This document shows, piece by piece, positions 23,155 to 42,649 of a DNA stretch of 45,026 nt (position 1 is the first letter of the stretch; each line of letters opens with the position of its first letter). Where the stretch lies: assembly GCA_024244705.1 (NCBI GenBank), contig JAAEOK010000093.1:1-45026 (forward strand), in the 5' to 3' direction. A program made the translations under genes and the position numbers. Source of the DNA: Alphaproteobacteria bacterium (GTDB lineage: Bacteria; Pseudomonadota; Alphaproteobacteria; JAAEOK01). The notes under the pieces are model-generated. The model worked only from the letters and a program-made list of their open reading frames with translations. It was not told where the DNA came from and did not search any database.

Positions 23155-23176
23155 CGCCGGAAAGCTGGGTACCGAC

Positions 23177-24484
23177 ATGCGAAATACGCCCCCGAGCAAG
23201 AACGATCTGGACCCGATAGAAATCGCCAGCCGCGACGAGATCGGTGCGCTGCAACTCAAACGCCTGAAGTGGACGTTGGGCCATGCCTATCGCAATGTCC
23301 CCCACTACAAGAAGGCGTTCGACGATGCCGGAATAGGTCCGAACGACCTCAAGGATCTATCCGATCTGGCGCGGTTTCCATTCACCACCAAGGAGGCGCT
23401 CCGCGAGGCCTATCCGTTTGGTATGTTCGCCGTCCCACGCGAACAGGTCGCGCGGATTCACGCGTCGAGCGGAACAACCGGCAAGCCGACGGTCGTCGGT
23501 TACACGGCCAAGGATATCAGCACCTGGGCCGACCTGATTGCCCGCTCCATGCGGGCATGTGGCACTCGGCCGGGGGATATCGTCCATGTCGCCTACGGCT
23601 ATGGCCTGTTCACCGGCGGTCTCGGCGCGCATTACGGGGCCGAGCGGCTCGGCTGTACCGTTATTCCGGTCTCGGGCGGCATGACGGAGCGGCAAGTGCA
23701 GTTGATCGAGGACTTCAAACCAACCACGATCATGGTAACGCCATCCTATGCTCTGGCACTAGCAGACGAGTTCGACCGCCAGGGCCTCGACGCGCGGAAC
23801 TCGTCCCTTCGCATCGGCATACACGGCGCCGAGCCGTGGACTAATTCGATGCGCCAGGAAATCGAAACGCGCTTCGATATGGACGCACTCGATGTTTACG
23901 GTCTTTCGGAAATATTGGGTCCCGGTGTGGCGTGTGAGTGCCTCGAGACGAAAGACGGCCCGACAATCTGGGAGGACCACTTCTATCCGGAGATCGTCGA
24001 CCCGAGCACCGGCGAACCGGTGCCGGACGGCGAAATCGGTGAATTGGTATTCACGACCTTGACCAAAGAAGCTCTACCGATGATCCGGTATCGGACGCGC
24101 GACCTCACCCGACTGCTCCCGGGCACGGCCCGGTCGATGCGCCGATTCGAGAAAGTGACCGGGCGATCGGATGACATGCTGATCATACGCGGCGTCAATC
24201 TGTTCCCAACACAGATCGAAGAACTGATCCTCCAGGATGAGCGCTTGTCGCCGCACTATGTATTGGAAGTGCGCCGCGATGGTCCGTTGGACAGCTTGAA
24301 GATTATCGTCGAGGGACGTGCGAACGCCTCCGAATCGGCGGTCGCTGAGGCGAGCGAAAACCTCCGTCACCTGGTGAAGAATCGCATCGGTGTCAGCGCC
24401 GAAGTCAAGATGCTGCCCGAAGGCGGTGTCGAGCGCTCCGTGGGCAAGGCCAAGCGGATTATCGACCTGCGCCCGAAGACCTAG
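23177..24484 (+). CDS. paaK: Phenylacetate-CoA ligase
   Basis: PaaK activates phenylacetate to phenylacetyl-CoA using ATP. The 435-residue ANL-superfamily protein has the P-loop-like ASSGTTGKPT (96-105), the adenine-binding region DVYGLSEILGPG, the hinge region RTRDL, and the C-terminal GRSDDMLIIRGVNLFPTQIEE block. It follows the thiolase by 22 bases and precedes a flavin hydroxylase by 12 bases. The family also includes ligases for other aryl acids such as hydroxylated benzoates, so the acid is inferred from the neighbours. Confidence 0.9.
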   Translation: MRNTPPSKNDLDPIEIASRDEIGALQLKRLKWTLGHAYRNVPHYKKAFDDAGIGPNDLKDLSDLARFPFTTKEALREAYPFGMFAVPREQVARIHASSGTTGKPTVVGYTAKDISTWADLIARSMRACGTRPGDIVHVAYGYGLFTGGLGAHYGAERLGCTVIPVSGGMTERQVQLIEDFKPTTIMVTPSYALALADEFDRQGLDARNSSLRIGIHGAEPWTNSMRQEIETRFDMDALDVYGLSEILGPGVACECLETKDGPTIWEDHFYPEIVDPSTGEPVPDGEIGELVFTTLTKEALPMIRYRTRDLTRLLPGTARSMRRFEKVTGRSDDMLIIRGVNLFPTQIEELILQDERLSPHYVLEVRRDGPLDSLKIIVEGRANASESAVAEASENLRHLVKNRIGVSAEVKMLPEGGVERSVGKAKRIIDLRPKT

Positions 24485-24496
24485 TGGATATTCGGG

Positions 24497-26182
24497 ATGT
24501 CGCAGTTCGAATATCCCGTCTACGACGCCGTCATCCCCGAGGCGGCCGCGACCGGACAAACCGACGATATCCAAGTCGTGATCGTAGGGGCCGGGCCGGT
24601 CGGATTGACGGCGGCGCTCGATCTGGCGGCCCATGACGTGCCGGTTGTCGTCCTCGACGACGACAACACGGTCAGCACCGGCAGCCGGGCGATCTGTTGG
24701 TCGAAACGGACCCTCGAAATTTTTTCCCGCCTCGACTGCGCGGCGCCACTGATGCAAAAGGGCGTCACCTGGCAGCGCGGCCGGGTCTTCGATCGCGACG
24801 AAGAGATCTACAGCTTCGACCTCTTGCCCGAGCCGGACCATCAGTTTCCGGCCTTCATCAATCTGCAGCAGTATTATGTAGAGCAGGAGTTGATCGAAAA
24901 GGCGCTTTCGAGCGAGCTCATCGATTTACGTTGGAACAACCGTGTCGTCGATGTCCGCCAATCGGATGACGGCGTCTTGCTTGATGTGGAAACGCCGGAC
25001 GGCCCCTACCGGGCGCATGCGCGCTACGTCATCGCCGCCGACGGCGCCCGCAGTACGGTTCGCAAAGCCCTCGGGCTGGATTTCGTCGGTCGCGTGTTCG
25101 AGGACCGGTTTCTCATTGCCGACGTGAAAATGAAGGCCGGTTTTCCCACCGAGCGATGGTTTTGGTTCCGCCCACCGTTCCACCCCGGCCCGTCTACCCT
25201 TCTTCACAAGCAGGCGGATAACGTCTGGCGGATCGATTTTCAGCTTGGCCCCGACGTCGACGCGGAAGCCGAGGCGAAGCCGGAGAACGTCGTTCCGCGT
25301 CTCAAAGCGATGCTCGGCGACGAGACCGAATTCGATCTTGAATGGGTCAGCGTCTATCGCTTTCAGGCGCGGCGCCTCGACCGGTTCGTCCACGGCGATG
25401 TCATGTTCATCGGCGATTGCGCGCACCAAGTCTCCCCGTTCGGGGCGCGGGGCGGAAACAGTGGCATTCAGGACGCCGACAATCTGGTGTGGAAATTGGC
25501 ACTCGTCCTTTCCGGAAAGGCCCCGGCCAATTTGCTCGAAAGCTTCGACGACGAGCGGGTCTATGCCGCCATCGAGAACCTGACGATTACGTCGAGCACG
25601 ACCGATTTCATGTCGGCAAAGGGCGAAGTTCAGACCGCTTTCCGCGATGCCGCCCTGACCCTCGCCAAGGATTACCCGTTCGCCCAGCGCTTCGTAAATG
25701 CGGGCCGGCTTTCGACTCCCACGGTCCATGCGCGCTCGCCGCTCAACACCGCCGATCGCGATGAGTTTTCAGAAAACCTGTGCCCGGGCACGGCCTGCGT
25801 CGACGCGCCGATAGCGGTCGGCGGCGCCGCGGGTTGGTTGGTCGATTATCTCGGCGGCGGGTTCGCGGGCCTTTACGCCCCGCGCTCGAAGAGCGAATTG
25901 GAACCCGCGGAATTGGAAGCCCTGAACCGGCTCAACCGAGGGGATATCCCGGTCAGGCCCTTGATCGTCGCCGATTGCAGCGTCGATGCCATGACGTCGA
26001 TATCGGATACCAAAGGCCGGGTCGCAGAGCGCTACGACCTGCGTCCGGGGACATTTTACCTCATTCGACCCGATCAGTATGTGGCCGGGCGGTGGCGTTC
26101 ACTGGATGAGGACACCGTATTTCATGCCCTCGATAAAGCGGTCGCGCGCGTGAACGACCCGGAGCGAAAGAATGTCGACTGA
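24497..26182 (+). CDS. Class A FAD-dependent aromatic hydroxylase (MhpA/PheA-like)
   Basis: This single-component flavoprotein hydroxylase (561 residues) has the dinucleotide-binding GAGPVG (31-36), the DG motif in IAADGARS (180-185), and the GD motif in FIGDCAHQVSPFGARGGN (304-321). Such enzymes use NAD(P)H and O2 to hydroxylate phenolic rings. The C-terminus has the thioredoxin-like region seen in MhpA and PheA relatives. It follows paaK closely and overlaps the DUF2783 gene by 11 bases, so all are probably one transcript. The ring substrate is unknown; a CoA thioester or a free hydroxyaryl acid are both possible. Confidence 0.85.
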   Translation: MSQFEYPVYDAVIPEAAATGQTDDIQVVIVGAGPVGLTAALDLAAHDVPVVVLDDDNTVSTGSRAICWSKRTLEIFSRLDCAAPLMQKGVTWQRGRVFDRDEEIYSFDLLPEPDHQFPAFINLQQYYVEQELIEKALSSELIDLRWNNRVVDVRQSDDGVLLDVETPDGPYRAHARYVIAADGARSTVRKALGLDFVGRVFEDRFLIADVKMKAGFPTERWFWFRPPFHPGPSTLLHKQADNVWRIDFQLGPDVDAEAEAKPENVVPRLKAMLGDETEFDLEWVSVYRFQARRLDRFVHGDVMFIGDCAHQVSPFGARGGNSGIQDADNLVWKLALVLSGKAPANLLESFDDERVYAAIENLTITSSTTDFMSAKGEVQTAFRDAALTLAKDYPFAQRFVNAGRLSTPTVHARSPLNTADRDEFSENLCPGTACVDAPIAVGGAAGWLVDYLGGGFAGLYAPRSKSELEPAELEALNRLNRGDIPVRPLIVADCSVDAMTSISDTKGRVAERYDLRPGTFYLIRPDQYVAGRWRSLDEDTVFHALDKAVARVNDPERKNVD

Positions 26183-26369
26183 AATTCGGACGGAATTGGG
26201 CTTCGAGGATCCCGATGGGATTTACGAGGCGTTGATCCATCTCCACGATGGCCTCGACCCCGCGCAAAGCCGGTTGGTTGGCGCGCGTCTCATATTGATT
26301 CTTGCCAATCACATCGGCGATAAGGCGGTAATCGAACAGGCGCTGGAAATGGCCAGGGGCGAACTTTAG
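26172..26369 (+). CDS. DUF2783 small protein
   Basis: This 65-residue acidic, helical protein contains DPDGIYEALIHLHDGL and RLILILANHIGD, the pattern of DUF2783. These proteins are typically encoded beside FAD-dependent hydroxylases in aromatic catabolism. No catalytic motif is visible; it may be an accessory or stabilising partner of the hydroxylase it overlaps. Function is unknown. Confidence 0.8.
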   Translation: MSTEIRTELGFEDPDGIYEALIHLHDGLDPAQSRLVGARLILILANHIGDKAVIEQALEMARGEL

Positions 26370-26397
26370 GCGCCACTCGATCGATCAAGGAGCGTGG

Positions 26398-26775
26398 TCA
26401 ATGCGCCGCGGCGAACGTCCTGATCCGATTTAACACCGCCACCCTCGACGCATCGTCATACTTGCCGACATGGAACAGGTGGAAGGCTTCTTCCCGCGAT
26501 AGGCCGAAAAAAGCGCGTACCGCCTTCCAACCGGTCAGGCCTGCATAGGCCGGAGAACGATTGTGCCGGGTCAATCCCTGACCCTTGAACCAATCGTCGC
26601 GAATTGCCCAGCCGACGGCGCAGGCGACCGAATTGCACGAGCCATTGCGTGCCCAGTCGCGCAAGTCGAAGGCATTGTCGTCGATCGATTCGAGGACCCG
26701 GCATAAGGCAAGCATACGTTCCCGATAAGTGTCGGGAATGGCGTAAGCATCTGGATTTGTTTGATCAAAAGGCAT
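26398..26775 (-). CDS. Conserved hypothetical protein of unknown function
   Basis: I do not recognise a named family for this 125-residue protein. It has a helix with RMLALCRVLESI, a WARNGSCNSVACAVGWA segment with two cysteines close together, and a C-terminal GLSREEAFHLFHVG part. Similar CxxxACAxGWA proteins occur in phages and bacteria without assigned function. GGGAGG lies 5 bases before ATG 26775, an excellent ribosome site, so it is probably expressed. It is convergent with the hydroxylase operon and may be unrelated to it. Confidence 0.65.
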   Translation of the reverse strand: MPFDQTNPDAYAIPDTYRERMLALCRVLESIDDNAFDLRDWARNGSCNSVACAVGWAIRDDWFKGQGLTRHNRSPAYAGLTGWKAVRAFFGLSREEAFHLFHVGKYDDASRVAVLNRIRTFAAAH

Positions 26776-26883
26776 GGGAACCTCCCTCAGCGTATTTGGA
26801 AGTTCTTGCTGTCAGTTTTCCATTATACACCAAATGGGTTCGCGCATTAAGGCGCGCCGGATATTCCACGATTGACGACGCGA

Positions 26884-28482
26884 CTAATGCGGGCCGCGAC
26901 CGAATTCGAGGTCACGCAACCGGCGGCGCTTGATCTTGCCGGTCGCCGTCTTTGGCAAATCATCGACGAATTCAATTCGCCGCGGATACTTGTACGGCGC
27001 CGTCACGCGTTTGGTGTGGTCCTGAAGTTCCTCGATCAGAGCATCCGATGGGGTATGGCCGACGGCCACGACGATGAAGGCCTTGACCACCTCCCCGCGC
27101 TCCGGATGCGGGCTGGCGACCGCCGCGCATTCCTGAACGGCACGATGTTCCATCAACGCATTCTCGACTTCCAGCGGCCCGATCCGGTAGCCGGCGGAGT
27201 TGATCACGTCGTCCGATCGCCCGTGGTAATAAAGGTACCCATCCTTGTCCATCGACACCGTGTCGCCGGTCAGGAAAAATCTATCGCCGCCGATTTCGAC
27301 GATCGCCTGTTGGGTCAGTTCCGGGTCGCGCCAATAGCCGAGCATGAATTGCGGGCTGGGCAGCCCGACCGCCAGCTGCCCCGGTGCTTCCGTCGAAACC
27401 GGCTGATCCTGTTCATCGACGATGAGGATCCGGGTTCCCGGCAACGGGCGACCCATTGAGCCGGATTTCACCGGCATGGTATTGTAGTTGACGACGGTCA
27501 TAAGTGTTTCCGTCTGGCCATAGCCGTCGAGGAGCGGTGTGCCGGCCACTTCCCGCCACCGCGTCACGATTTCCGGGTTCACCGATTCGCCGGCGGATAT
27601 CGTCAGGCGCAGGGACGACAGATCGATGCCGGTGGTATCCGTTTGAATGAGCCGGCGCAATTCGGTGGCGGCGGCACAGAAAACGGTGACGCCATATTTC
27701 TCGATCAGTTCGAACCGGCCTCTGTCGTCGAACGGGCCGTTGTAAAAAAAGACGGTCGCGCCACAGCTCCACGGGCCAAAGAGGATGCTGGTTCCTGCCT
27801 TCGACCAACCGGTATCCGCCGTACACCACATCGTGTCGTCTTCGTAGAGATCGTTCCAGTACCAAGCCGAAACACGCCACGCGAAAAGCGCGCGCGAGGC
27901 GTGGAGAACGCCCTTCGGCTCACCCGCTGATCCGGAGGTGTAGAACATGATCGCCGGATCATCGATGCCGACCTCCGTCGGAGTCAGACGATCGCTTGTC
28001 GTCGACAGCGCGTCCTCGATCTCCACCCAACCCGATGCCTGGCCGACCGCCATTTGCACAGAGACGGACATGCCCTCGAATTTGGCCGTGTTGGCGGCGG
28101 TTGTGATGACGCCGCGGGCGCCGGAGTGATCGATGCGGTAAGCGAGATCCTTGGCTGTCAGCATCTCGACGCAGGGAATCGGTACGGCGCCGAGCTTGAG
28201 GCATCCGACGAGCGCGATGTGCCACATGGGAATCCGCGGCAGCATGATGACGACGCGATCGCCTTTTTCGATTCCCTGGTCCGCCAATAGTGCGGCAAAT
28301 CGGTTGCTCAGACTGGCGATTTCGGAGAATGTGAAGCGGCGCCGGTCCCCCGTCGCGTCACACCAGATCAGCGCCGTCTTATCGTTTCTTGCCGCCCGTG
28401 CGTCGACCACATCGGCGCCGAAATTGAACGTCGCCGGCAGTTCCCATTCGAAGTCGGCAAACGCCTTTTCATACGTCTCCAT
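26884..28482 (-). CDS. Acyl/aryl-CoA synthetase, medium-chain (ACSM)-like
   Basis: The enzyme activates a carboxylic acid to its CoA ester via an acyl-adenylate. It has the AMP-binding loop MFYTSGSAGEPKGV, the DGYGQTE motif, the hinge GRSDDVINSAGYRIGP, and the C-terminal lysine region TATGKIKRRRL. It resembles ACSM ligases for medium-chain or aryl acids. ATG 28482 gives the usual N-terminus (METYEKAF); ATG 28497 is also possible. It lies next to the aromatic block but on the other strand, so a second acid substrate is plausible. Confidence 0.85.
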   Translation of the reverse strand: METYEKAFADFEWELPATFNFGADVVDARAARNDKTALIWCDATGDRRRFTFSEIASLSNRFAALLADQGIEKGDRVVIMLPRIPMWHIALVGCLKLGAVPIPCVEMLTAKDLAYRIDHSGARGVITTAANTAKFEGMSVSVQMAVGQASGWVEIEDALSTTSDRLTPTEVGIDDPAIMFYTSGSAGEPKGVLHASRALFAWRVSAWYWNDLYEDDTMWCTADTGWSKAGTSILFGPWSCGATVFFYNGPFDDRGRFELIEKYGVTVFCAAATELRRLIQTDTTGIDLSSLRLTISAGESVNPEIVTRWREVAGTPLLDGYGQTETLMTVVNYNTMPVKSGSMGRPLPGTRILIVDEQDQPVSTEAPGQLAVGLPSPQFMLGYWRDPELTQQAIVEIGGDRFFLTGDTVSMDKDGYLYYHGRSDDVINSAGYRIGPLEVENALMEHRAVQECAAVASPHPERGEVVKAFIVVAVGHTPSDALIEELQDHTKRVTAPYKYPRRIEFVDDLPKTATGKIKRRRLRDLEFGRGPH

Positions 28483-28616
28483 TCGATGCCGCCGCATACC
28501 GCAACCCCGTATCTATCGCCGCCGCCGGTCAAGGGTGGCCCAGGCCCCATCGGAAAGGAAGTATTAACCGTATTTCCTCAGTATGGGCACGACTTCAAGC
28601 GTTCCGGAGCCCATCA

Positions 28617-29903
28617 GTGAATCAGGCCAGAGCGGCAAATCCGGCATCCGCGTTCTTGTCCGACCCAAGCACGCGACAGCGGGCAATCGTCCTCTTGGCG
28701 ATCGTGCTGCTGGTGCCCGGCGCCATCTATCTGGTGCGGGGAATCGACTACAATTTGCTGGTCGAGGGACCGGGCCTGCTCAACGAAGACGGCGGGCCGG
28801 CCGGTGTCGATTTCCTTGCCTTCTACAGTGCCGCGGTGGCGGTGTGGAAAGGTGCGGCGGGTGCTGTCTACGACATGGACGCCCTGTACACGATACAGCG
28901 CGCGGTCATTCGCGCCGATATCGTGGCGGTGCCATTCGCCTACCCGCCGCCCTACCTGATCTATGTCGCCCCCTTGGCGTGGCTGCCCTATACGGCGGCC
29001 CTGTGGGCATGGCTGATCGTCTTGTCGGGCGCCTGCCTCTATACCCTATGGCGGCTCGCGCCTCATCCGGTGACGCCCGCCGTCGCGCTCCTGTTTCCGG
29101 GCCTGGCCCAATCCTTTCTCGCCGGCCAAAACGGGCTATTGACCGTGGCCTTGATCGCCGGTGGCATTTCCCTGCTCGGCCGGCGCCCCTATATGTCGGG
29201 TGTTCTGTTGGGGCTGATGATTTTCAAGCCCCATATTGCCCTACTGGTTCCCATCTGCCTGCTCGCGGCGCGCGAATACCGAGCGCTGTCGGCATTTATC
29301 GGCACGGTCACGGCGGCCGCGTTCATTAGCGCGGTCTTGTTCGGATTCGCGCCGTGGTTCTTGTTCGTAGAGGCGGTGCAGAGCAGCCTGAACCTGATCG
29401 TCGATCACCGCATCCCTTGGGAGCGCATGCCGACGGCATTCGTTGCGGTCTACAACGCAACCGATTCCCTCATGGCGGCGCGCCTCTGCCAGCTTGCCAG
29501 TACGCTCACGGCGTTCGCCGCCTGCTTCATCGTGTGGCGGCGCACGGGCGATGCCTTCCCGCGGATGCTCGTTCTCGCCGTTTGCATCCCCCTCGCCACG
29601 CCCTATGGGTTCGATTACGACCTCGCGGTCCTCGCCGTTCCGATCGCCATTCTGGGTTGGCGCGTCTGGCAACATGGACCGAAGGATGGCGAGCTGTTGC
29701 TCCTGATCCTGTTGTGGGTGGCACCCTTACTGATTTGGATGGGCTCGGCGAGTTTCGGTTTCCAGATCGGTCCCATCGTCCTGATCGGCCTGGCAGTCTA
29801 TGCACTGACCACGGCGAGCGGCCGAGGAGGCGAAACCACGAGGCCGACGGACCCGGCCACGACGTCCATGCGAACCCCAGGACGGCGGCCGTTCCGATCC
29901 TGA
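28617..29903 (+). CDS. GT87-like (DUF2029) polytopic glycosyltransferase
   Basis: The 428-residue membrane protein has about ten hydrophobic helices and the GT87 pattern: an early periplasmic DFLAFYSAA segment with the likely catalytic acid, FAYPPPYLIYVAP, a central LAGQNGLLTVALI and MIFKPHIALLVP. GT87 enzymes use polyprenyl-phosphate sugars, such as mannosyl donors, outside the cytoplasm. GTG 28617 has GGAG about 8 bases upstream. The C-terminal 30 residues are disordered and basic. It stands alone, divergent from the CoA ligase. Confidence 0.78.
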   Translation: MNQARAANPASAFLSDPSTRQRAIVLLAIVLLVPGAIYLVRGIDYNLLVEGPGLLNEDGGPAGVDFLAFYSAAVAVWKGAAGAVYDMDALYTIQRAVIRADIVAVPFAYPPPYLIYVAPLAWLPYTAALWAWLIVLSGACLYTLWRLAPHPVTPAVALLFPGLAQSFLAGQNGLLTVALIAGGISLLGRRPYMSGVLLGLMIFKPHIALLVPICLLAAREYRALSAFIGTVTAAAFISAVLFGFAPWFLFVEAVQSSLNLIVDHRIPWERMPTAFVAVYNATDSLMAARLCQLASTLTAFAACFIVWRRTGDAFPRMLVLAVCIPLATPYGFDYDLAVLAVPIAILGWRVWQHGPKDGELLLLILLWVAPLLIWMGSASFGFQIGPIVLIGLAVYALTTASGRGGETTRPTDPATTSMRTPGRRPFRS

Positions 29904-29951
29904 GACGGTGGATGGCCGCCGGCCCGCCCCTTCGGCCCGATTTGGCCGCCT

Positions 29952-31193
29952 TCAGCCAGCCTGATTTCCGAGGAGATCGATCAATGTTCTGGCCACGACT
30001 TCGGTGGCCTTGCCGAGATCGTCGAGCGACAGGTGCTCGTCGGCGCCATGGGCATTGGCTTCCAGGATGTTATGTGGGCCGGCGCCATAGATGACGGTCG
30101 GAATGCCGGCCGCGGAATAGTGCCTGGCGTCGGTGTAGAGGGGGACGCCATGCGGCTTTATCGGCTCACCCATGATTTCGCTGCCATGCGCCACCAGCAG
30201 TTCGACGAGGCGTTCCGACCCGGGAACTGGCGCGAACGGCTCGGCCAGCAAAATCCGTCGAATGTCGACGGTAATGCCCGGGTAGGCCTTCGCGGCGGCA
30301 TTGATGACTTCGGATAATTCCGCCTCCGCGCCGACACCGCTTTCCTCCGGGATGAGGCGGCGGTCGATGCGGAAGGTCACGCGATCGGGCACGACGTTGG
30401 TGTTTATGCCGCCGGAAATGAGGCCGACGACGAGCGACGGAGAGTCAATCCCTTCGATGGCCGAATGGACATCGGCAAAGCCACGGCGGTGGGCATAGAG
30501 CGCGTTCAGAACCCCCGATGCCGCCTCCAATGCATCGACGCCGGTATGGGGCATCGCGGCATGCGCCTGTCGGCCGCGGACCTGGACTTCCAGGTGCAAG
30601 GCGCCGTTATGGGCGGTGACGATGCCGTAGGCGAACCCGGCCGCGATGGCATAGTCGGGCTTGGTCAGGCCCTGATCGATCAGCCATTTGGGACCGATGA
30701 CGCCGCCGGCCTCCTCGTCATAGGTGAAATGGAGTTCCACCGTTCCGCCGAGCTTGGCACCGACCGCCTCGATCGCGCGCAACGCGAAGGTATAGGTGGC
30801 AAAGTCCGATTTCGATACCGCCACGCCGCGGCCATACATATGCCCATCATGAATTTCAGCGCCGTAGGGATCCCTGGTCCATCCGTCTCCCGGCGGAACC
30901 ACGTCCCCGTGGGCATTGAGTGCGACCACCGGCCCATCGCCGAAACGGCGGCGCACGATCAGATTGATAGCCGAGACCATCCCGTTCGCCCTGACCAAGT
31001 CGCCGGGAACGACATGACGCTCGACCTCAAAGCCCATCGCCTGCAGCGCCGCGGCCGCGCGTTCGGCATGTTCGTAGCAATTGCCCGGCGGATTGTCGGA
31101 CGGCACGCTCACCATCTCGGCGAGAAAGGCGACCTGCTCGTCACGAAGTTGCTGGATCCGGTCGTGAACTTCCTGATGAAACGATTTTGTCAT
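29952..31193 (-). CDS. M20-family metallohydrolase (ArgE/DapE-like) with non-canonical metal site
   Basis: The fold is M20: HGDVVP (His95, Asp97), DEE (159-161, catalytic Glu160 and ligand Glu161), a lid/dimerisation domain (about 200-310), and His382 near the C-terminus. The bridging Asp of the YGRGxxD motif is Val126 (GRGVAVSKSD), and the later Glu/Asp ligand position is Gly186. Two of five usual ligands are therefore absent, although the frame is intact. It follows PuuE by 4 bases in the urate operon. By position it could act on allantoate, ureidoglycolate or another ureide, but no activity can be claimed from sequence. Confidence 0.8.
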   Translation of the reverse strand: MTKSFHQEVHDRIQQLRDEQVAFLAEMVSVPSDNPPGNCYEHAERAAAALQAMGFEVERHVVPGDLVRANGMVSAINLIVRRRFGDGPVVALNAHGDVVPPGDGWTRDPYGAEIHDGHMYGRGVAVSKSDFATYTFALRAIEAVGAKLGGTVELHFTYDEEAGGVIGPKWLIDQGLTKPDYAIAAGFAYGIVTAHNGALHLEVQVRGRQAHAAMPHTGVDALEAASGVLNALYAHRRGFADVHSAIEGIDSPSLVVGLISGGINTNVVPDRVTFRIDRRLIPEESGVGAEAELSEVINAAAKAYPGITVDIRRILLAEPFAPVPGSERLVELLVAHGSEIMGEPIKPHGVPLYTDARHYSAAGIPTVIYGAGPHNILEANAHGADEHLSLDDLGKATEVVARTLIDLLGNQAG

Positions 31194-31197
31194 GGTG

Positions 31198-32115
31198 CTA
31201 TCGCCTTGCCGGATGATGTTTTATCCAATGGCGTGCGATATCCGCCCGCCGACAGATCCAGACCTTGTCATGGTCCTGCACGTAGTCGAGAAATCGAGCC
31301 AATGATGCGGCGCGACCGGGTCTGCCGACGAGGCGGCAATGCAGCCCCACCGACATCATCTTCGGCGTCGCCTCGCCCTCCGCGTACAGGACGTCGAACG
31401 AATCCTTGAGATAGGAGAAGAACTGGTCGCCGGCATTGAATCCCTGCGCGGTCGCGAATCGCATGTCATTGGCGTCCAACGTATACGGAACGATGAGGTG
31501 GTCCCTGCCGGACACCGAGACCCAATACGGCAGGTCATCGTTGTAGGCGTCGGCATCGTATAGGAATCCGCCCTCCTCGACGACGAGACGGCGCGTATTG
31601 GGACTCATGCGACCGGTGTACCAGCCCACGGGGCGCTTGCCTGAAAGGTCACGAATGGTCTTTACCGCCAGCTTCAGATGGTCGCGTTCCGTTTCCTCGT
31701 CGACATACTGATAGTCGATCCAGCGCCAGCCATGGCTGGCGATTTCGTGACGCCCCTCGACCATCGCGGCGGCGGCATCGGGATTACGGGCCAAGGCCAT
31801 GGCGACGGCGAACACGGTGACGCGAATTCCGCGGTCTTCGAACAGGCGCATCAGGCGCCAGAACCCGGCGCGCGAGCCGTATTCATAGATCGATTCCATG
31901 TTCATGTTGCGCGCGCCATACAGCGGCTCCGCACCGACGATCTCGGACAGAAAAGCTTCCGATGCGGGATCGCCATGAAGGATATTGTTCTCGCCGCCCT
32001 CCTCGTAGTTCAGCACGATCTGAACTGCGACGCGCGCACCCTTGGGCCAGTTCGCATGGGGCGGACGTGGGCCGTAGCCCACCATGTCGCGCGGGTAGCG
32101 TTGCCTCTTCTGCAT
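31198..32115 (-). CDS. puuE: Allantoinase PuuE (polysaccharide-deacetylase-fold)
   Basis: PuuE opens the allantoin ring to allantoate and is unrelated to the amidohydrolase-type allantoinases. The 305-residue protein matches Pseudomonas PuuE closely: YPRDMVGYG near the start, LNYEEGGENNILHGD, MNMESIYEYGSRAG, HGWRWIDYQYVDEETERDH, GWYTGRMSPNTRRL and a C-terminal DIARHWI. It lies between puuD (6 bases) and the M20 gene (4 bases). In some genomes this gene is linked or fused to an OHCU decarboxylase; here it stands without one. Confidence 0.93.
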   Translation of the reverse strand: MQKRQRYPRDMVGYGPRPPHANWPKGARVAVQIVLNYEEGGENNILHGDPASEAFLSEIVGAEPLYGARNMNMESIYEYGSRAGFWRLMRLFEDRGIRVTVFAVAMALARNPDAAAAMVEGRHEIASHGWRWIDYQYVDEETERDHLKLAVKTIRDLSGKRPVGWYTGRMSPNTRRLVVEEGGFLYDADAYNDDLPYWVSVSGRDHLIVPYTLDANDMRFATAQGFNAGDQFFSYLKDSFDVLYAEGEATPKMMSVGLHCRLVGRPGRAASLARFLDYVQDHDKVWICRRADIARHWIKHHPARR

Positions 32116-32121
32116 GGTCAG

Positions 32122-33321
32122 CTAATCGATTTCGGCGCCCTGCGCGATCCATCGGCGCAGGATTTCGCGTTCGGCGTCGGTCATTTCGGTAAGATTGCCC
32201 GGCGGCATGACGTCCGATTGCAGAGACTGGGCATCGATTTCAGCGGCGCGCGCCTGGATTTGTTCCGGCGTGTCGTACATCACGCCTTTTGGCGCCACGT
32301 CGACATATTCGCCGCTCGGCTCCGCGGAATGGCAGATACCGCAACGCACGTCGATGATCGTGCGAACGTCGACGAACGCCACCTTATCGCCCCCCGCGTC
32401 CGAACGGATGGCCGCCTGGCCAAGCCATATTCCGAGCAGCAACAACATACCCGCGGCACCGGCGGCCACGAACAAGAGACCCTGCTTCTCCTTGCCCTTG
32501 TTGCGCAGATTGAAAAAGTGCCGGATCGACGCGCCAACCAAAACCAAAAGCCCGAGGATGAGCCAATTGAGGTCGTTCCCGTAGGTCCCCGCATAGTGGC
32601 CGCTGATCATGAGGAACAGCACCGGCAGCGTCATGTAATTGTTGTGGACGGATCGGTTCTTGGCCCGCTCGGCGGCGGCTTTATCGGGCTGGCGCCCGGC
32701 CTTGGTCGCGTCGACCAATTCGCGCTGCGATGGAATGATGCGCATCCATACGTTGGCCGCCATCAGCGTGCCCATCATCGCGCCGACATGGAGATAGGCC
32801 GCGCGGTCGCTCATGAAATGGGTTAGCCCCCAGGCGATCAACAACATCAGCAAAAACGAAATGAGCGCGGCGACCTTCGGTGAATTCATGGCGAAGCCGG
32901 AATTCCACAGCGTGTCGTAGACGAACCAGGCAACGATCAGCGTGGCCAGACCGAGCACGATCGTGCCGCCGACACCGAGGCCGGAGGGCTCCGACGGCAT
33001 CGTATAGACGCTGGCACCGACATAGTAGATCAGAACCAGCAAGAAGAATCCGGTGATCCAGGTAAACCCGGCTTCCCACTTGACCCAGTGCAGTGTCTTG
33101 GGAATGTCGGCCGGCGCCAACTGGATTTTGATCATGTTGTAAAAGCCGCCGCTATGGACCATCCACAGGTTGCCCTCGATCTTATCGTCACCATCCTTGG
33201 GCGGCTCGATATGGCTGTCGAGCCAATTGAAAAAGAACGACGATCCAATCCACGCGATTCCGGTGACGATATGCGCCCAGCGCAGAATCAGATTGAGCCA
33301 ATCGCTGAATATGGCTTCCAC
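32122..33321 (-). CDS. puuD: Urate hydroxylase PuuD (membrane cytochrome c-type)
   Basis: PuuD oxidises urate to 5-hydroxyisourate and passes electrons to the respiratory chain rather than to oxygen. The N-terminal two-thirds has about eight TM helices starting WLNLILRWAHIVTGIAWIG. A C-terminal cytochrome c domain has the heme motif CGICH (Cys327, Cys330, His331). GTG 33321 is chosen because AAGGAG lies 7 bases upstream and the product begins MEAIFSDW as in relatives; the longer ORF reads back into the regulator gene. It is 17 bases after the GntR gene, so regulator and pathway are probably co-transcribed. Confidence 0.92.
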   Translation of the reverse strand: MEAIFSDWLNLILRWAHIVTGIAWIGSSFFFNWLDSHIEPPKDGDDKIEGNLWMVHSGGFYNMIKIQLAPADIPKTLHWVKWEAGFTWITGFFLLVLIYYVGASVYTMPSEPSGLGVGGTIVLGLATLIVAWFVYDTLWNSGFAMNSPKVAALISFLLMLLIAWGLTHFMSDRAAYLHVGAMMGTLMAANVWMRIIPSQRELVDATKAGRQPDKAAAERAKNRSVHNNYMTLPVLFLMISGHYAGTYGNDLNWLILGLLVLVGASIRHFFNLRNKGKEKQGLLFVAAGAAGMLLLLGIWLGQAAIRSDAGGDKVAFVDVRTIIDVRCGICHSAEPSGEYVDVAPKGVMYDTPEQIQARAAEIDAQSLQSDVMPPGNLTEMTDAEREILRRWIAQGAEID

Positions 33322-33338
33322 GTCCCTGCTCCTTGTCC

Positions 33339-34064
33339 TTAATTGTTGGCGGCTTCGGCAAATATTTCGTTCAGATTGAGCGAGCCGCCGCCCGCCTCGA
33401 GTTTCAATTTCTGTTCGCACACCTGAAGATGGCGGTTCATGAGATCGATCGCCTGTCCACTATCGCCGCTGGCGATGGCGCCGATGATCGCCCGATGCTC
33501 GTCAAACGAGCACGCTGAGTTCCCAGGCGTCTCATAAATCGCGATAACCAGCGAAGTCCGCGACACCAATTCCCGCAAGAAGTCGACGATGACGCCGTTT
33601 CCCGCATGCTCCGCAAGTCGAATATGAAAGTCGCCGGAAAGACGAATCCAGTGGCCGCGATCGCCGTCCGAGAACGCGGCCTCCTCCTCATCGACAAGAT
33701 TCCGAAGCGCGTCGATCTGCTCGCTGGATATCCTTCCCAATAGATTCTCGATCACCGCTTTCTCCAATATGCGGCGGGTCTGGAAGACCTCTCGGGCCTG
33801 TTCCACCGACGGGCTCGCCACGACGGCGCCACGATTGGGTCGTATCTCCACGATATTGTCGCGACTGAGCCGGAAAAGTGCCTTGCGAATTACCGTTCGG
33901 CTGACGCCAAAGACTTCGCCCAAGGAATCTTCGGCGAGTTTTGTTCCCGGCGGAAGCTTGTGTGCCAGAATGGCATCATAGACCGCTCGGTAGACCGCTT
34001 CATCGCCCGTAACCGAACGCGGATCAGTGTTTTGCTTGCGAATCGCGGCAATCTCAGAAGCCAT
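33339..34064 (-). CDS. GntR/FadR-family (FCD domain) transcriptional regulator
   Basis: The 241-residue protein has an N-terminal winged helix-turn-helix (about 22-85, with VFGVSRTVIRKALFRL). An all-helical FCD ligand-binding domain (about 90-215) follows, with putative metal or ligand histidines His147, His190 and His212. AAAGGAG lies 6 bases before ATG 34064. It is first in the puuD-puuE-M20 transcript and divergent from uraH-xdh, so it probably controls both arms, with a purine or ureide effector. Repression or activation cannot be told from sequence. Confidence 0.9.
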   Translation of the reverse strand: MASEIAAIRKQNTDPRSVTGDEAVYRAVYDAILAHKLPPGTKLAEDSLGEVFGVSRTVIRKALFRLSRDNIVEIRPNRGAVVASPSVEQAREVFQTRRILEKAVIENLLGRISSEQIDALRNLVDEEEAAFSDGDRGHWIRLSGDFHIRLAEHAGNGVIVDFLRELVSRTSLVIAIYETPGNSACSFDEHRAIIGAIASGDSGQAIDLMNRHLQVCEQKLKLEAGGGSLNLNEIFAEAANN

Positions 34065-34252
34065 TTTGTCTCCTTTTTCCATTCCAGACCCTTGCCCCCA
34101 TGATTATTGAATACACTTCTTTTATAAAAATGGATACAATTTAATGGACAACGATGCTAAATTGCTTTTTGTTAACATTTGGCAGCAGCCAGCAAGAACA
34201 TAAGCTGGGCGGCACCGATCCGCTCGGATAGAACAGGCAGGAGGAGACGAAT
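34065..34252. promoter_or_regulatory. Divergent control region of the purine island
   Basis: This 188-base spacer separates the leftward regulator/puuD operon from the rightward uraH/xdh operon. Its centre is AT-rich with TATAAA at 34123-34128. GAATACA (34109-34115) and GGATACA (34132-34138) form a direct repeat 23 bases apart. TGGATACA and TGGACAAC (34131-34152) form a second, shorter pair. These are candidate GntR/FCD sites. GGAGGAG lies just before the uraH start. No individual -35/-10 pair is convincing. Confidence 0.4.
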
Positions 34253-34606
34253 ATGGGCCGTCTGACGACGCACGTGCTGGATGCGGCCCGCGGCGTACCC
34301 GGCGCCGGGATCGCAATCGATCTCTATAGAATGGAGGACGGCGAGCGCGTCCACATAGCCGCGACCGAGACCAATGGCGATGGACGGTGCAACGGGCCGC
34401 TTCTTGAAGGCGAAGGGTTCGCCGCCGGCGTCTACGAACTGGTCTTCCAGACAGCCGCCTATTTTCGAAATTCCGACATCGAGCTGCCCGATCCGCCATT
34501 CCTCGACGCCGTGGTCGTGAGATTTGGCGTGTCGGATACCGAATCGCACTATCATGTGCCGATACTCGTTTCGCCGTGGAGCTACACGACCTATCGCGGG
34601 AGCTGA
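34253..34606 (+). CDS. uraH: 5-hydroxyisourate hydrolase (transthyretin-like)
   Basis: UraH hydrolyses the PuuD product to OHCU. The 117-residue protein has the family hallmarks LTTHVLD with His7, Arg45 in NGDGRCN, HYHVP (His99 and His101) and the C-terminal tetrapeptide YRGS. AGGAGGAG precedes ATG 34253. It is first in the rightward operon, 6 bases before xdhA. It has no signal peptide, so it should be cytoplasmic. Confidence 0.96.
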   Translation: MGRLTTHVLDAARGVPGAGIAIDLYRMEDGERVHIAATETNGDGRCNGPLLEGEGFAAGVYELVFQTAAYFRNSDIELPDPPFLDAVVVRFGVSDTESHYHVPILVSPWSYTTYRGS

Positions 34607-34612
34607 TCGCAA

Positions 34613-36097
34613 ATGCCCCCTAAGACAAAACCGCATGCAGAAGACCACGCCACCATTCGATTCATGCTGAACGATGAACTGCGCGAGGTCGACGACATCG
34701 ATCCGAATACGACGGTGCTCAATTATCTAAGGTTGCAAGAACAAGAAACCGGCACCAAGGAAGGCTGCGCCGAAGGCGATTGCGGCGCATGCTCCGTCGT
34801 GCTCGGCGAGGTCGATAACGGACGCATTCGTTATCGGACGGTCAACGCTTGCATCCTCTTTCTACCGGTGGTCGATGGCAAGCAACTTATTACAGTCGAA
34901 GGGTTGCGACAGACGGATGGAAGCCTTCACCCGGTACAGCAGGCCCTGGTCGACTTGCACGGTTCGCAATGCGGCTTCTGCACCCCGGGCTTCGTCATGT
35001 CGATGTTTGCCCTCTACAAGCACAATCCGTCGCCGACGCGTCAGCAGATCAATGATTGCCTCGCCGGAAATCTCTGCCGATGCACGGGATACCGGCCGAT
35101 CGTCGAGGCCGCCGCGAACATGCATGGCTATGGCAAGAAGGATCATTTCTCGGCGGCGGAAAAGCGGACCGTAAAGCTGCTCAAATCCTTGCAGCGGTCC
35201 GATACGCTATTGCTAAAATCCGGTAATCGCCGATACTTCGCGCCGATTTCCTCTGACGGCGTGGCCGAAATATTCGCCCGAAATCCCGATGCTTGCCTGC
35301 TCGCCGGCGGTACCGACGTCGGGCTGATCGCGACCAAGGATCATAAGGATCTCGATACATTGATTTACACCGGCGGTGCCCGCGATCTGGCCTCGGTGGA
35401 GGTTGGCGGCGATTCGATCGAAATCGGGGCCGCCGCGACCTATAGCGACGCCCTCGACGCCATCAGTCGCGAGTACGATGACTTCGGCGAAGTCCTGCGC
35501 CGCCTTGGCTCGGTACAGGTTCGGAACGCAGGAACCATGGTCGGCAATATCGGCAATGCCTCTCCGATCGGCGATTCTAGCCCGTTGCTGATCGCCCTCG
35601 ACGCCAAGGTCATTCTCCGCAAGGGCGCCAAGCGACGCACGCTGGATCTCGGGGCGTTTTTCGTCGGCTACCGAAAGACCCAATTGCGGCGCGGCGAATT
35701 CATCGAGAAGATCGTGTTGCCGCGGTCGCGGCCGGACACCGTGTTTCGCGCCTACAAGATCTCGAAGCGTTTCGACCAGGACATTTCCGCTGCCTGCGGC
35801 GCGTTTGCCGTCCGTCTCGAGGGCGGCCGGGTGCGGGACATCCGCATTTGTTTCGGCGGCATGGCGGCGACCCCGAAACGAGCAACGGCGGCCGAAGCGG
35901 CAATAAAGGGCCGCGTCTGGTCGCTGTCGACGGTCTCTGGCGGGATGGCCGCCATGGAATCGGATTATGAGCCCTTGACCGACATGCGCGCTTCCCGCGA
36001 TTACCGCCTCACGGTCGCGAAGAACCTGCTCTACAAATTCTATCTCGAGACCACGGACGGTGCCGCCGAGACCCGCGTCGTGGCATATGGGACATAG
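34613..36097 (+). CDS. xdhA: Xanthine dehydrogenase small subunit (2Fe-2S and FAD)
   Basis: The electron-transfer subunit (494 residues) carries a plant-type 2Fe-2S cluster (Cys52, Cys57, Cys60, Cys80) and a second 2Fe-2S cluster (Cys120, Cys123, Cys155, Cys157). An FAD domain with LLAGGTDVGLI and TMVGNIGNASPIGD follows, then a CO-dehydrogenase-flavoprotein C-terminal domain. It passes electrons from the Mo site of XdhB to NAD+. Order and spacing (4 bases to xdhB) are those of the Rhodobacter-type two-subunit enzyme. Confidence 0.95.
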   Translation: MPPKTKPHAEDHATIRFMLNDELREVDDIDPNTTVLNYLRLQEQETGTKEGCAEGDCGACSVVLGEVDNGRIRYRTVNACILFLPVVDGKQLITVEGLRQTDGSLHPVQQALVDLHGSQCGFCTPGFVMSMFALYKHNPSPTRQQINDCLAGNLCRCTGYRPIVEAAANMHGYGKKDHFSAAEKRTVKLLKSLQRSDTLLLKSGNRRYFAPISSDGVAEIFARNPDACLLAGGTDVGLIATKDHKDLDTLIYTGGARDLASVEVGGDSIEIGAAATYSDALDAISREYDDFGEVLRRLGSVQVRNAGTMVGNIGNASPIGDSSPLLIALDAKVILRKGAKRRTLDLGAFFVGYRKTQLRRGEFIEKIVLPRSRPDTVFRAYKISKRFDQDISAACGAFAVRLEGGRVRDIRICFGGMAATPKRATAAEAAIKGRVWSLSTVSGGMAAMESDYEPLTDMRASRDYRLTVAKNLLYKFYLETTDGAAETRVVAYGT

Positions 36098-36100: not shown

Positions 36101-38449
36101 ATGGCAAAAAAATCGAAAAAGACGCGCCTGCTCACCAGAGTTCATCAATCGGTGGCTCATGACAGCGCCCACAAACATGTGAGCGGCGAGGCGATTTATA
36201 TCGATGATATCCCCGAGCCGCCGCTCATGTTGAACGTCGCCATCGGTATGAGCGACCACCCCCACGCCAAAATCCGCGCGATCGATCTCGGCCGCGTCAG
36301 AAAAGCGCCCGGCGTCGTCGCCGTGCTGACCGCCGCCGATATTCCCGGCAAAAACGACGTCGGCCCAGTCTTCGACGGCGATCCGGTCCTGGTGAACGAG
36401 CTTGTCGAGTTCAAAGGCCAGGCGATATTCGCGGTGGCCGCGGAAACCATGGAGCAGGCGCGCCGCGCCGCGCGCTTGGGCAAGATCGACTACGAAGTCC
36501 TGGACCCGATCCTGACTGTCGAAGAGGCCCTGGCCGCCGACTTCTACGTTCTGCCGCCGCACGTCATGCGGCGGGGAAATTCGCGCAAAGCGCTCGACAA
36601 GGCGCGCCACAAGATCGACGGCCGCTTCAAGATGGGCGGGCAGGATCACTTCTACCTCGAGGGACAGATCAGCCTGGCGGTGCCGGGCGAGGACGGCGAC
36701 CTCGTCATATATTGCTCGACGCAGCATCCCTCCGAGATCCAGCAAGGCGTTTCACACGTCCTCGGCTGCGACAGCAATGCGATCACCGTCGAGGTCCGCC
36801 GCATGGGCGGCGGGTTCGGCGGCAAGGAAACGCAAGGCGCCCAATTCGCCGCGCTCGCCGCCTTGTTCGCACGAAAGACCGGCCGGCCGGCGAAGGTCCG
36901 CCTCGACCGCGACGACGACATGATCATCACCGGAAAGCGCCATGACTTCATCGTCGATTTTGAGGTTGGCTTCGACGATGTCGGCGCGATCAATGGCATC
37001 GAGATCGAACTCGCCTCGCGCTGCGGCATGTCGGCGGAGTTGTCGGGCGCGATCAATGACCGAGCCATGTTCCACTGCGCCAATGCGTACTACCTGCCGA
37101 ATATCACGGTCACATCGCATCGCTGCAAGACCCACACCGTATCGAATACGGCATTTCGAGGATTCGGCGGTGCCCAGGGCATGCTGGCGATGGAGCACAT
37201 CATCGACGAAGTGGCACGGCACCTCGGCAAGGACCCCTTGAAGGTCCGCAAGCACAATTTCTATGGCGAATCGGAACGTAACGTCACCCACTATCACATG
37301 ACGGTCGAGGACTTCGTCCTCCACAAGCTGGTTCCGGACCTCGAAAAATCTTCCGACTATTTCAATCGACGCCAGGAGGTCGCGGCGTTCAATGCGACCA
37401 GCGCCGTGTTGAAGAAGGGCATCGCCCTCACGCCGATCAAGTTCGGCATATCCTTCACCACGACATTCCTCAACCAAGCCGGCGCGTTGATCCACGTCTA
37501 CACGGACGGCAGTGTCCACCTCAACCACGGTGGAACCGAGATGGGACAGGGTCTTTTCGTCAAGGTCGCCCAGGTCGTCGCCGAGGAATTCCAAATTGAT
37601 CTGGACCGGATCAAGATCACCGCCACCAACACAAGCAAGGTGCCGAATACCTCGGCCACCGCGGCATCCTCCGGCACCGACATGAATGGGGCCGCCGCCT
37701 TTGTCGCGGCCAACAAGATCAAGCGCCGGCTAATCGCCTTTGCCGCCGAACACTTCAAGGTCGACCGCAGCAAGATTCGGTTTCACGACAATCACGTCGA
37801 GATCGGCCGTCGGCGGATCCCCTTCAACGAGCTTATTCAACTGGCTTACCTGGGCCGGGTGTCGCTCTCCGCGACCGGGTTCTACACCACACCCAAAATC
37901 CACTACGACCGGGAAAAGGCGCGCGGCAGGCCGTTTTACTATTTCGCCTATGGCGCGGCCGTTTCCGAGGTTTTGATCGACACGCTGACCGGTGAGTACA
38001 AACTCCTGCGCGCAGATATCTTGCACGACTGCGGACGATCCTTGAACCCGGCGATCGATATCGGGCAGGTCGAAGGCGCGTTCGTGCAGGGCATGGGATG
38101 GCTCACCATGGAAGAACTTCATTGGAATCCAGACGGCGGATTGGCGACGCACGCACCGTCGACCTATAAGATTCCCGTGGCCAGCGACATCCCCGCCGAG
38201 TTTCATGTGCGCCTTCTCGAAAGCGGACGAAACAAGGAAAAGGTCATCCACTGGTCCAAGGCCGTCGGCGAACCGCCGTTCATGCTCGGGATATCGGTGT
38301 TCCATGCGATCAAGGATGCGGTCTCCGCGGTCGGCGAGCACCAATTGAGCCCGGCCCTCAACGCCCCGGCAACACCGGAAGAGGTCCTTCGATCTGTCGA
38401 CGAATTGCGCCATCGCTTGTCCCGCCCTGCCGCGGAGGCCGCGGAATGA
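36101..38449 (+). CDS. xdhB: Xanthine dehydrogenase molybdenum-binding large subunit
   Basis: This 782-residue subunit holds the molybdopterin cofactor and oxidises hypoxanthine and xanthine to urate. The purine-binding Glu243 (GGKETQ), Arg353 (AFRGFGG) and the catalytic base Glu724 (VGEPPF) are all present. This argues for xanthine dehydrogenase over aldehyde or CO dehydrogenase relatives. Residue roles are assigned by comparison with the Rhodobacter capsulatus enzyme. Its stop overlaps xdhC by 4 bases. Confidence 0.95.
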   Translation: MAKKSKKTRLLTRVHQSVAHDSAHKHVSGEAIYIDDIPEPPLMLNVAIGMSDHPHAKIRAIDLGRVRKAPGVVAVLTAADIPGKNDVGPVFDGDPVLVNELVEFKGQAIFAVAAETMEQARRAARLGKIDYEVLDPILTVEEALAADFYVLPPHVMRRGNSRKALDKARHKIDGRFKMGGQDHFYLEGQISLAVPGEDGDLVIYCSTQHPSEIQQGVSHVLGCDSNAITVEVRRMGGGFGGKETQGAQFAALAALFARKTGRPAKVRLDRDDDMIITGKRHDFIVDFEVGFDDVGAINGIEIELASRCGMSAELSGAINDRAMFHCANAYYLPNITVTSHRCKTHTVSNTAFRGFGGAQGMLAMEHIIDEVARHLGKDPLKVRKHNFYGESERNVTHYHMTVEDFVLHKLVPDLEKSSDYFNRRQEVAAFNATSAVLKKGIALTPIKFGISFTTTFLNQAGALIHVYTDGSVHLNHGGTEMGQGLFVKVAQVVAEEFQIDLDRIKITATNTSKVPNTSATAASSGTDMNGAAAFVAANKIKRRLIAFAAEHFKVDRSKIRFHDNHVEIGRRRIPFNELIQLAYLGRVSLSATGFYTTPKIHYDREKARGRPFYYFAYGAAVSEVLIDTLTGEYKLLRADILHDCGRSLNPAIDIGQVEGAFVQGMGWLTMEELHWNPDGGLATHAPSTYKIPVASDIPAEFHVRLLESGRNKEKVIHWSKAVGEPPFMLGISVFHAIKDAVSAVGEHQLSPALNAPATPEEVLRSVDELRHRLSRPAAEAAE

Positions 38450-39519
38450 CCGGTTGGGTCTCCGACTTGGGCGACGCCGCCGAACGGAACGAACCGGTCG
38501 TTCTGGTCACGGTCGCGCGGGCAAAGGGGTCGACGCCGCGCGAAGCCGGCGCGAAAATGATTGTCGGCGGCCGCGGTCCGCTTGGGACGATCGGCGGCGG
38601 ACATCTCGAATATCGCGCGCTGGAGCTGGCCCGCGAACTGCTCGGCGACAACGACCGCCCGGAGACGCTGCTTCACGATTTCGCACTCGGGCCCAGCTTG
38701 GGTCAGTGTTGCGGCGGCAATGCGACCATCCTGTTCGAGCGCTTGTCGCTGCGTCAGGTGGAAGCCTGGTTGACGCCGGTGGCGGCGGAACTGAATGATC
38801 GCCGGTCGCCGGTGATCGTGACCCGCGCCGATACCGGCCGCAAGCTGGTCCTGACATCCCGCGGGGAGACTGGTTCGCTCGGCGACGATCTCTTGGATCG
38901 GCGCGCGTTGGGCCTCGTCGCGGATACCGATAGCGATAATCACACTTCTCGTCTGATTGACCTGGAAATCGGCGATAACGGCGGCACGATACCCGTGTTC
39001 ATCGACATCGTCCGGCGTGCCGGCACTGAAGTGATGCTTTTTGGCGCCGGACACGTCGGCAAGGGGATCGTTCACGCCCTTGGCCCCCTCCCCGACTTTC
39101 GGATCACATGGATCGACGGCCGCGCGGAACAGTTCCCCCATGACGTCCCGGCCAACGTCGATGTTCGCCTTTCCGAAACGCCGGTCGATGAAGTCGAGTC
39201 CTTGCCGCCCGGCGCCATTGTCCTGGTGATGACCCACAGCCACGCGCTCGACTACGAAATTGTCGAGAAGGTTTTGAGGCGGGGTGATTTTCGTTTCTGC
39301 GGCCTGATCGGGTCGAAAACGAAACGCGCCCAGTTCATCAAGCGACTGGCGCACCGGGGAATGCCGCCGGAAACCGTCCAGCGGCTGACCTGCCCGATCG
39401 GCATCGCCGGTATCGACGGCAAACATCCCGCCGAAATCGCCATTGCGGTGGCGGCCGAGATTCTACAATTGTGCGGACAAGCCTCCGAGGCCGACGCTGT
39501 CAAGGAGGCCTCGGCATGA
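38446..39519 (+). CDS. xdhC: Xanthine dehydrogenase accessory protein XdhC
   Basis: XdhC binds and sulfurates molybdenum cofactor and inserts it into XdhB. The 357-residue protein has the N-terminal XdhC/CoxI domain with VARAKGSTPREAGAKM and GTIGGGHLE, and a C-terminal Rossmann domain with FGAGHVGKG (199-207). It overlaps xdhB and the guanine deaminase gene by 4 bases each. It is longer than many XdhC proteins, with extra residues in the linker. Confidence 0.93.
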   Translation: MTGWVSDLGDAAERNEPVVLVTVARAKGSTPREAGAKMIVGGRGPLGTIGGGHLEYRALELARELLGDNDRPETLLHDFALGPSLGQCCGGNATILFERLSLRQVEAWLTPVAAELNDRRSPVIVTRADTGRKLVLTSRGETGSLGDDLLDRRALGLVADTDSDNHTSRLIDLEIGDNGGTIPVFIDIVRRAGTEVMLFGAGHVGKGIVHALGPLPDFRITWIDGRAEQFPHDVPANVDVRLSETPVDEVESLPPGAIVLVMTHSHALDYEIVEKVLRRGDFRFCGLIGSKTKRAQFIKRLAHRGMPPETVQRLTCPIGIAGIDGKHPAEIAIAVAAEILQLCGQASEADAVKEASA

Positions 39520-42646: not shown

Positions 42647-42649
42647 GTC

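Follow-up and report, generated by a model that had tools for sequence, protein, structure and literature searches.

The window analysed here is a stretch of 45,026 nucleotides from an Alphaproteobacteria bacterium (GenBank assembly GCA_024244705.1, contig JAAEOK010000093.1), which contains a urate/allantoin operon on its minus strand. The operon starts with a gene for a GntR/FCD regulator (33339-34082; Pfam GntR and FCD), followed by puuD encoding a membrane urate oxidase (32122-33420; Pfam Urate_ox_N, 366.8 bits) and by puuE encoding a polysaccharide-deacetylase-type allantoinase (31198-32115; Pfam Polysacc_deac_1), which matches the protein labelled PuuE in the record of locus L091. As listed, the puuD reading frame overlaps the upstream gene, and its translation probably begins further downstream, at about 33321 by reading. 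The last gene of the operon (29952-31193, minus strand, ATG at 31193 and stop at 29952) encodes a non-canonical, ArgE/DapE-like M20 protein of 413 amino acids, here termed M20x. A first-pass annotation had described its frame as intact, which is confirmed by the uninterrupted open reading frame, and had placed it directly after puuE; this applies to the window, with a gap of 4 nt between the puuE stop and the M20x ATG, but across the family the usual neighbour is allantoate amidohydrolase (AAH) and not PuuE. A plus-strand gene for a GT87 family glycosyltransferase (28617-29903, by Pfam) converges on the M20x end, closing the operon there. A promoter and terminator scan of 29800-34700 returned no promoter-like sites and five terminator-like sites compared to 4.1 expected, which gave no usable signal.

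Divergently to the operon, the plus strand encodes the xanthine dehydrogenase small (xdhA, 34613-36097) and large (xdhB, 36101-38449) subunits, both named by reading without a profile scan, the XdhC maturation factor (38446-39519; Pfam XdhC_C and XdhC_CoxI) and a nucleobase deaminase, probably a guanine deaminase from a reading of its HAE and PCxxC motifs without a profile scan (39471-39986). These are followed by an ABC transporter (39949-43579; Pfam ABC_tran and BPD_transp_2), by context of the nucleoside/purine type, with an ATPase (39949-41583) and two permeases (41543-42646 and 42650-43579), and by its Bmp-type substrate-binding protein (43650-44738), again named by reading without a profile scan. 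Beside the purine cluster, the region 21949-28497 contains a gene for an AMP-binding enzyme (Pfam) along with genes that, by reading, are thiolase-like, CoA-ligase-like and FAD-monooxygenase-like, possibly an aromatic or acyl degradation cluster.

M20x passes the curated Pfam cut-offs for Peptidase_M20 (108.3 bits vs. 24.6) and M20_dimer (66 vs. 21). It falls 0.4 bits short of the cut-off of the nearest NCBIfam model, TIGR01910 (ArgE/DapE family deacylase; 217.2 vs. 217.6 bits), although relatives carry this name in RefSeq-derived records, and stays below the ArgE/DapE equivalog cut-offs (TIGR01892, 150.4 vs. 297.7; NF006400, 210.9 vs. 374). The AlphaFold2 model, predicted from the family alignment with a mean pLDDT of 93.3, has E. 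faecium DapE (7uoi) as best PDB fold match (VIA-align Z 43.4, rmsd 2.0 over 373 residues), the next matches being the putative acetylornithine deacetylase 3pfo and E. coli ArgE. M20x lacks the GSHxD and HIEQG motifs of the AllC-UAH branch (allantoate and ureidoglycolate amidohydrolases), which most neighbouring AAHs and the window genome's own AAH possess.

The dinuclear site of M20 enzymes is formed by five ligands, i.e. a His, a bridging Asp, a Glu, a Glu or Asp and a second His, and we take the roles of the M20x positions (bridging Asp, general base, ligands) to be those established for DapE and ArgE. To map the ligands, a profile of 51 family members was aligned with DapE and ArgE chains of known structure; it comprises the window protein and 50 of the 80 named loci introduced below. 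Of the other loci, L024 was excluded for a frameshift and L043 and L067 for an in-range stop, and 27 were not entered. Residues were counted in a set of 132 rows, composed of 131 distinct fetched segments and the window protein. In the profile alignment His95, Asp97, Glu160, Glu161 and His382 of M20x align with the usual HxD motif, the EE pair and the last His. The codons of His95 (30909-30911, minus strand like all codons given here), forming the HxD motif with Asp97, and of Glu160 at the general-base and Glu161 at the ligand position (30711-30716) are kept in 132/132 rows each, so that these four residues, noted earlier as remaining in the window protein, turn out to be invariant in the family. 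The metal-bridging Asp position reads Val126 (30816-30818) within GRGVAVSKSD, for which the alignment agrees with the first-pass annotation, with Val in 130, Ala in one and Thr in one of the rows. The distal Glu position had been assigned to Gly186; a non-acidic residue is indeed found, but the Glu of the GEP motif of 7uoi falls one residue before, on Ala185 (30639-30641; Ala in 128, Ser in two and Pro in two of 132 rows). An acidic residue at position 126, 185, 186 or 187 occurs in none of the 132 rows, and residues 184-188 of the window protein include none either. The last ligand position, His382 (30048-30050), is His in 121 rows, Lys in ten and Gln in one, the latter (L080) being located where its aligned match ends and therefore unreliable; its reported retention therefore is true for the window protein but not for a sister clade of ten with Lys. 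Asp130 (30804-30806), a family-specific acid one helical turn on and a candidate substitute ligand, is present in all 132 rows, the residues found invariant being His95, Asp97, Lys128, Asp130, Asp159, Glu160, Glu161, His211, Asn266, Arg278, Arg279, Asp355 and Tyr359.

As a control, the window genome contains 12 M20 loci by Pfam, M20x included, and all five of its DapE/ArgE-like paralogues aligning at the bridging position with a DapE-like motif keep the Asp, none of them having an acid at the equivalent of position 130. With Val126 and Ala185, and with both positions being non-acidic in all rows, the sequence gives no reason to expect a normal two-metal site, in line with the earlier statement that it cannot form, and it is very likely that M20x has no such centre. 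By profile and predicted fold M20x belongs to the M20 family, while its ligand positions set it apart from the dinuclear M20 metallohydrolases and its motifs from AAH and UAH. The same genome encodes a second unusual M20 paralogue (G000, contig C37:31988-33142; loci L004 and L171), whose bridging position is occupied by Asn (GLGIGNMKAA), which reads DET in place of EE and in which no His aligns at the last ligand position; two PuuE paralogues are encoded some 16 kb away.

The substitutions are shared by a conserved family. From 84,980 species genomes we retrieved 114 relatives, the best 80 of which, referred to as the 80 named loci, show 60-70% identity; all 80 have the GRG[VA]AVSKSD motif and a non-acidic stretch where GEP is expected. 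In plasmid records (best 40 of 925) identity runs from 56% downward to one at 48% (Tistrella), the next being at 32%, and in the phylum sample every match at E <= 1e-45 was also at E <= 1e-135 and at least 53% identical (15/299 genomes). These identity gaps in both samples indicate the M20x family to be sharply bounded. The observation of Val126 and Ala185 hence extends beyond one genome and, as judged from the alignments, marks a conserved M20 subfamily, which is common, being found in 35/385 sampled genomes of the class and 15/299 of the phylum.

Mapping the gene neighbours of homologues with the GRGxxVSKSD signature, a check suggested by the first-pass annotation, yielded mostly ureide loci. 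For the context counts AAH was accepted only at an identity of at least 44% and within the available DNA up to 10 kb. Among the 80 named loci (best 80 of 114), 51 contain AAH, 15 contain PuuE, PuuD, UraH or UraD without AAH, eight contain allantoicase (Alc) and six none of these. Over all locus sets, AAH lies upstream of M20x on the same strand and within 200 nt in 48 of the 54 AAH-holding loci; the 17 loci scored 'none' among 19 genome loci do not represent a fair sample, as these were mostly chosen for genomes lacking AAH. In annotated plasmid records of Azospirillum, Roseomonas and Aminobacter, M20x immediately follows a gene annotated as allantoate amidohydrolase, the order in the Aminobacter plasmid being racemase, puuE, AAH and M20x with a urea transporter and urease farther on; a Burkholderia aenigmatica plasmid record lacks AAH there, M20x being flanked by an amidohydrolase and a racemase. 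In Ralstonia-type loci (8/8) M20x comes right after Alc and ureidoglycolate lyase (AllA), the order being Alc-AllA-M20x. Placed on a tree, the context labels are clustered yet change several times (19 changes vs. a mean of 47.2 after shuffling), and 14 rows (13 scored 'none') form a subclade nested among AAH-bearing rows, with amidase, amidohydrolase/Rieske, phosphotriesterase and kynureninase with tryptophan dioxygenase as contexts. A general replacement of AAH by M20x is ruled out by AAH being directly upstream in most loci, and a simple replacement of AllA is weakened by the Ralstonia-type loci carrying both.

Some individual neighbourhoods deserve mention. On a Caballeronia plasmid (L131, 9408-15192) M20x, with 62% identity, is divergent from kynureninase and tryptophan 2,3-dioxygenase, with a sodium:solute symporter after it. 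In L088 (7557-11200), and likewise in L061, a TauD-family dioxygenase, perhaps an alternative purine hydroxylase, is encoded between PuuD and M20x. In L011 (2071-6454) an OTCase-like carbamoyltransferase, an asparaginase, an amino-acid (carbamate?) kinase and M20x are arranged in a row. In PMC4016543 a ureidoglycine carbamoyltransferase is proposed to make ureidoglycine from allantoate in AAH's stead, and by analogy the OTCase-like protein of L011 may be such a ureidoglycine-making enzyme.

Next to the gene neighbourhoods, we counted the co-occurrence of the pathway genes in 385 genomes of the class. Of these, 35 have M20x, 34 have AAH (E <= 1e-80), 38 have allantoicase over the family cut-off (of 39 matched) and 100 have an AllA family match at E <= 1e-3. 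The AllA matches at E <= 1e-40, present in 59 genomes, are referred to as strong AllA, since some of the weaker ones probably are relatives with a different function. M20x and AAH occur together in 17 genomes (odds ratio 18.5, Fisher p 2.6e-11), with the two genes no more than 100 nt apart in 11, within 1.5 kb in two more and unlinked in four. The window genome is among the unlinked ones, its AAH being located on another contig; it further has UraD and three PuuE copies, and searches for AllA, allantoicase and ureidoglycine aminohydrolase (UGHY) detected none of these in it. Two of its PuuE paralogues lie side by side on contig C37 (14186-16039) and are 58% and 61% identical to the PuuE of the window. 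The 35 M20x genomes contain PuuE in 29 (E <= 1e-50), UraD over the cut-off in 20, strong AllA in five, allantoicase in four and UGHY over the cut-off in one. Neither AAH (E <= 1e-80) nor allantoicase is found in 14 of the 35, although this AAH threshold may miss real AAHs because those of the clade described below are only 39-44% identical; one of the 14, G057, lacks any AAH-like match even at 1e-30. Strong AllA accompanies allantoicase in 36/38 genomes and M20x does so in 4/38, three of which encode a divergent form at 46-48% identity. The 34 AAH genomes divide into 17 with M20x (G276 also with strong AllA), four with UGHY and AllA and 13 with none of M20x, UGHY and strong AllA. The four UGHY-bearing AAH genomes are the same four M20x-negative ones with strong AllA, and the exclusion of UGHY among AAH genomes is not significant (0/17 with M20x vs. 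4/17 without, p 0.10).

The ten rows with Lys in place of His382 comprise nine loci of the phylum sample (L181-L189), which also have Gln for His200, and L143 of the class sample. In a tree for which every third of the ordinary rows was used they form one clade with a support of 100/96, in which, by alignment, three of the five canonical ligands are gone. Longer stretches were fetched around the nine phylum-sample loci, L143 not being included. They show the order PuuE-UraD-AAH-M20x in one direction in 7/9, and PuuD, UraD and AAH close by in an eighth (L198), no PuuE, PuuD, UraD or AAH being contained in the stretch fetched for the ninth (L199). The AAHs of this clade are those with 39-44% identity mentioned above.

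The ureide-related role proposed in the first-pass annotation is backed by the neighbours in the 80 named loci and by this second, separately sampled clade, and for the M20x of the window a role in ureide catabolism is likely. AAH being directly upstream both in most AAH-holding loci and in most Lys382 loci points at its product as the substrate. This supports a model, which we put forward as a tentative one, according to which M20x is a working member of the M20 family from a non-dinuclear branch, acting late in purine breakdown on a ureide supplied by AAH. AAH makes ureidoglycine, which can be converted to ureidoglycolate, and M20x would take either of them, helping to release the last ureido nitrogen as glyoxylate forms; the naming of these two compounds as substrates is equally provisional. 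Ureidoglycolate can lose its nitrogen by an amidohydrolase or a lyase, with UAH releasing ammonia from it, as stated in PMC3793230. M20x would be catalytic with Glu160 as general base, and its chemistry would proceed with one metal at most or none, His95, Glu161 and Asp130, kept in all rows, serving as metal or substrate anchors. A lyase or deamination step, not needing the strongest metal-activated water, would fit such a stripped site. A bolder version, which we consider doubtful, is that M20x works without a catalytic metal, using an invariant Asp130-Glu160-Glu161-His95-Lys128 set instead of the two-metal centre, with Lys at the old ligand position in one clade, and that its breakdown of ureidoglycine or ureidoglycolate is a hitherto unassigned final reaction of the purine pathway across many proteobacteria.

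Several observations count against the proposed ureide step. The nested subclade resides in non-purine contexts, the AAH of the window genome is on another contig, and 14 of the 35 M20x genomes are without both AAH (E <= 1e-80) and allantoicase. In the Ralstonia-type loci, with Alc and AllA before M20x, ureidoglycolate is already handled and no ureidoglycine is made, which argues against the proposed substrate; there, M20x is either a holdover or its substrate is another ureide. The 13 AAH genomes without M20x, strong AllA and UGHY demonstrate that the step can be met another way.

The strongest of the competing explanations, which we judge somewhat unlikely, is that M20x works as a conventional hydrolase on a different small N-carbamoyl or N-acyl compound arising in purine and amino-acid breakdown, e.g. 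a side product like oxalurate or a wrong-handed ureide, beside whatever main route is in use. It would account for the coexistence of M20x with AAH, with Alc-AllA in the eight Ralstonia-type loci, with the carbamoyltransferase of L011 and, elsewhere, with kynureninase, amidases and amidohydrolases, and copies at about 60% identity may share one substrate. The direct coupling to AAH in 48/54 AAH loci and 7/9 Lys382 loci speaks against it, as does UGHY, AllA and Alc missing from most M20x genomes.

Rather unlikely, in our view, is a mono-metal amidohydrolase with one Zn or Mn bound by His95, Glu161 and His382 (or Asp130), Glu160 as base and a chemistry as in the dinuclear relatives. His95, Glu161, His382, Asp130 and Glu160 are kept in the window protein and in 121/132 rows, and mono-zinc DapE structures exist in the PDB (4o23, 3isz), but the Lys382 clade loses His382 and yet keeps the AAH operon. 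With Lys at this position in a clade of ten, seven of which have AAH directly upstream, a site requiring His382 is not the general answer, and His95-Glu161-His382 as a family-wide mono-metal site is ruled out. The first-pass annotation had offered a mono-metal enzyme or the use of Asp130; the latter still is a candidate ligand given its strict conservation, the former does not hold family-wide with His382 as ligand.

The loss of two or three ligands and the frequent direct coupling to AAH would also be compatible with a non-catalytic partner binding AAH or the ureide as a regulator or scaffold. This is improbable because the catalytic residues are strictly kept: none of the 132 rows deviates at Glu160, Glu161, the HxD motif or the lid positions His211, Asn266 and Arg278, a tighter constraint than scaffolding would call for. 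M20x also persists where AAH is not nearby, both in Ralstonia and in the 29 loci with a 'none' score. For gene decay, or an artefact of sequencing or annotation, no support was found, although a stop or frameshift is crossed by a few tblastn rows (L024, L043, L067); this reading is refuted by the same substitutions occurring in named genomes of many families and in plasmid records.

If the favoured model of a working, non-dinuclear ureide enzyme is true, the public records that call the family 'ArgE/DapE family deacylase' or 'M20/M25/M40 family metallo-hydrolase' misname it, and M20x has a defined job in allantoin use, filling the gap in AAH genomes without detected UGHY or AllA. It would furthermore provide a natural series of M20 sites with five, three and two ligands suited for testing the need of catalysis for a dinuclear centre. 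Titles and abstract starts in open-licence PubMed Central, searched for the M20x family, the pathway and M20 ligand loss, contained no description that we recognised as this family, and those listed for 5-nitroanthranilate aminohydrolase were not relevant either; in PMC11698098, covered by a term search, M20, ArgE and DapE are all unnamed.

Compared to known systems, M20x shares with DapE and ArgE (7uoi; E. coli ArgE 7rsf/8uw6) the whole-chain fold, the M20 and dimerisation domains and the HxD, GRG, EE and C-terminal His motifs, but has Val for the bridging Asp, Ala for the distal Glu and, in one clade, Lys for the last His, Asp130 and the ureide-operon setting being new in M20x. A further relative with the M20 fold is 5-nitroanthranilate aminohydrolase (5k8m-5k8p; Z 38.8-40.2, about 23% identity), which acts on a non-peptide substrate and has PDB entries with Mn or Zn. 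AAH (AllC, M20-type) and plant UAH belong to the same superfamily and, by gene order, to the adjacent pathway step; their branch has the GSHxD and HIEQG motifs, whereas M20x is without them and scores in the ArgE/DapE branch. The cupin-type AllA and UGHY carry out the steps proposed here for M20x, but have unrelated folds and belong to unrelated sequence families (probes Pfam PF04115 and NCBIfam TIGR03214).
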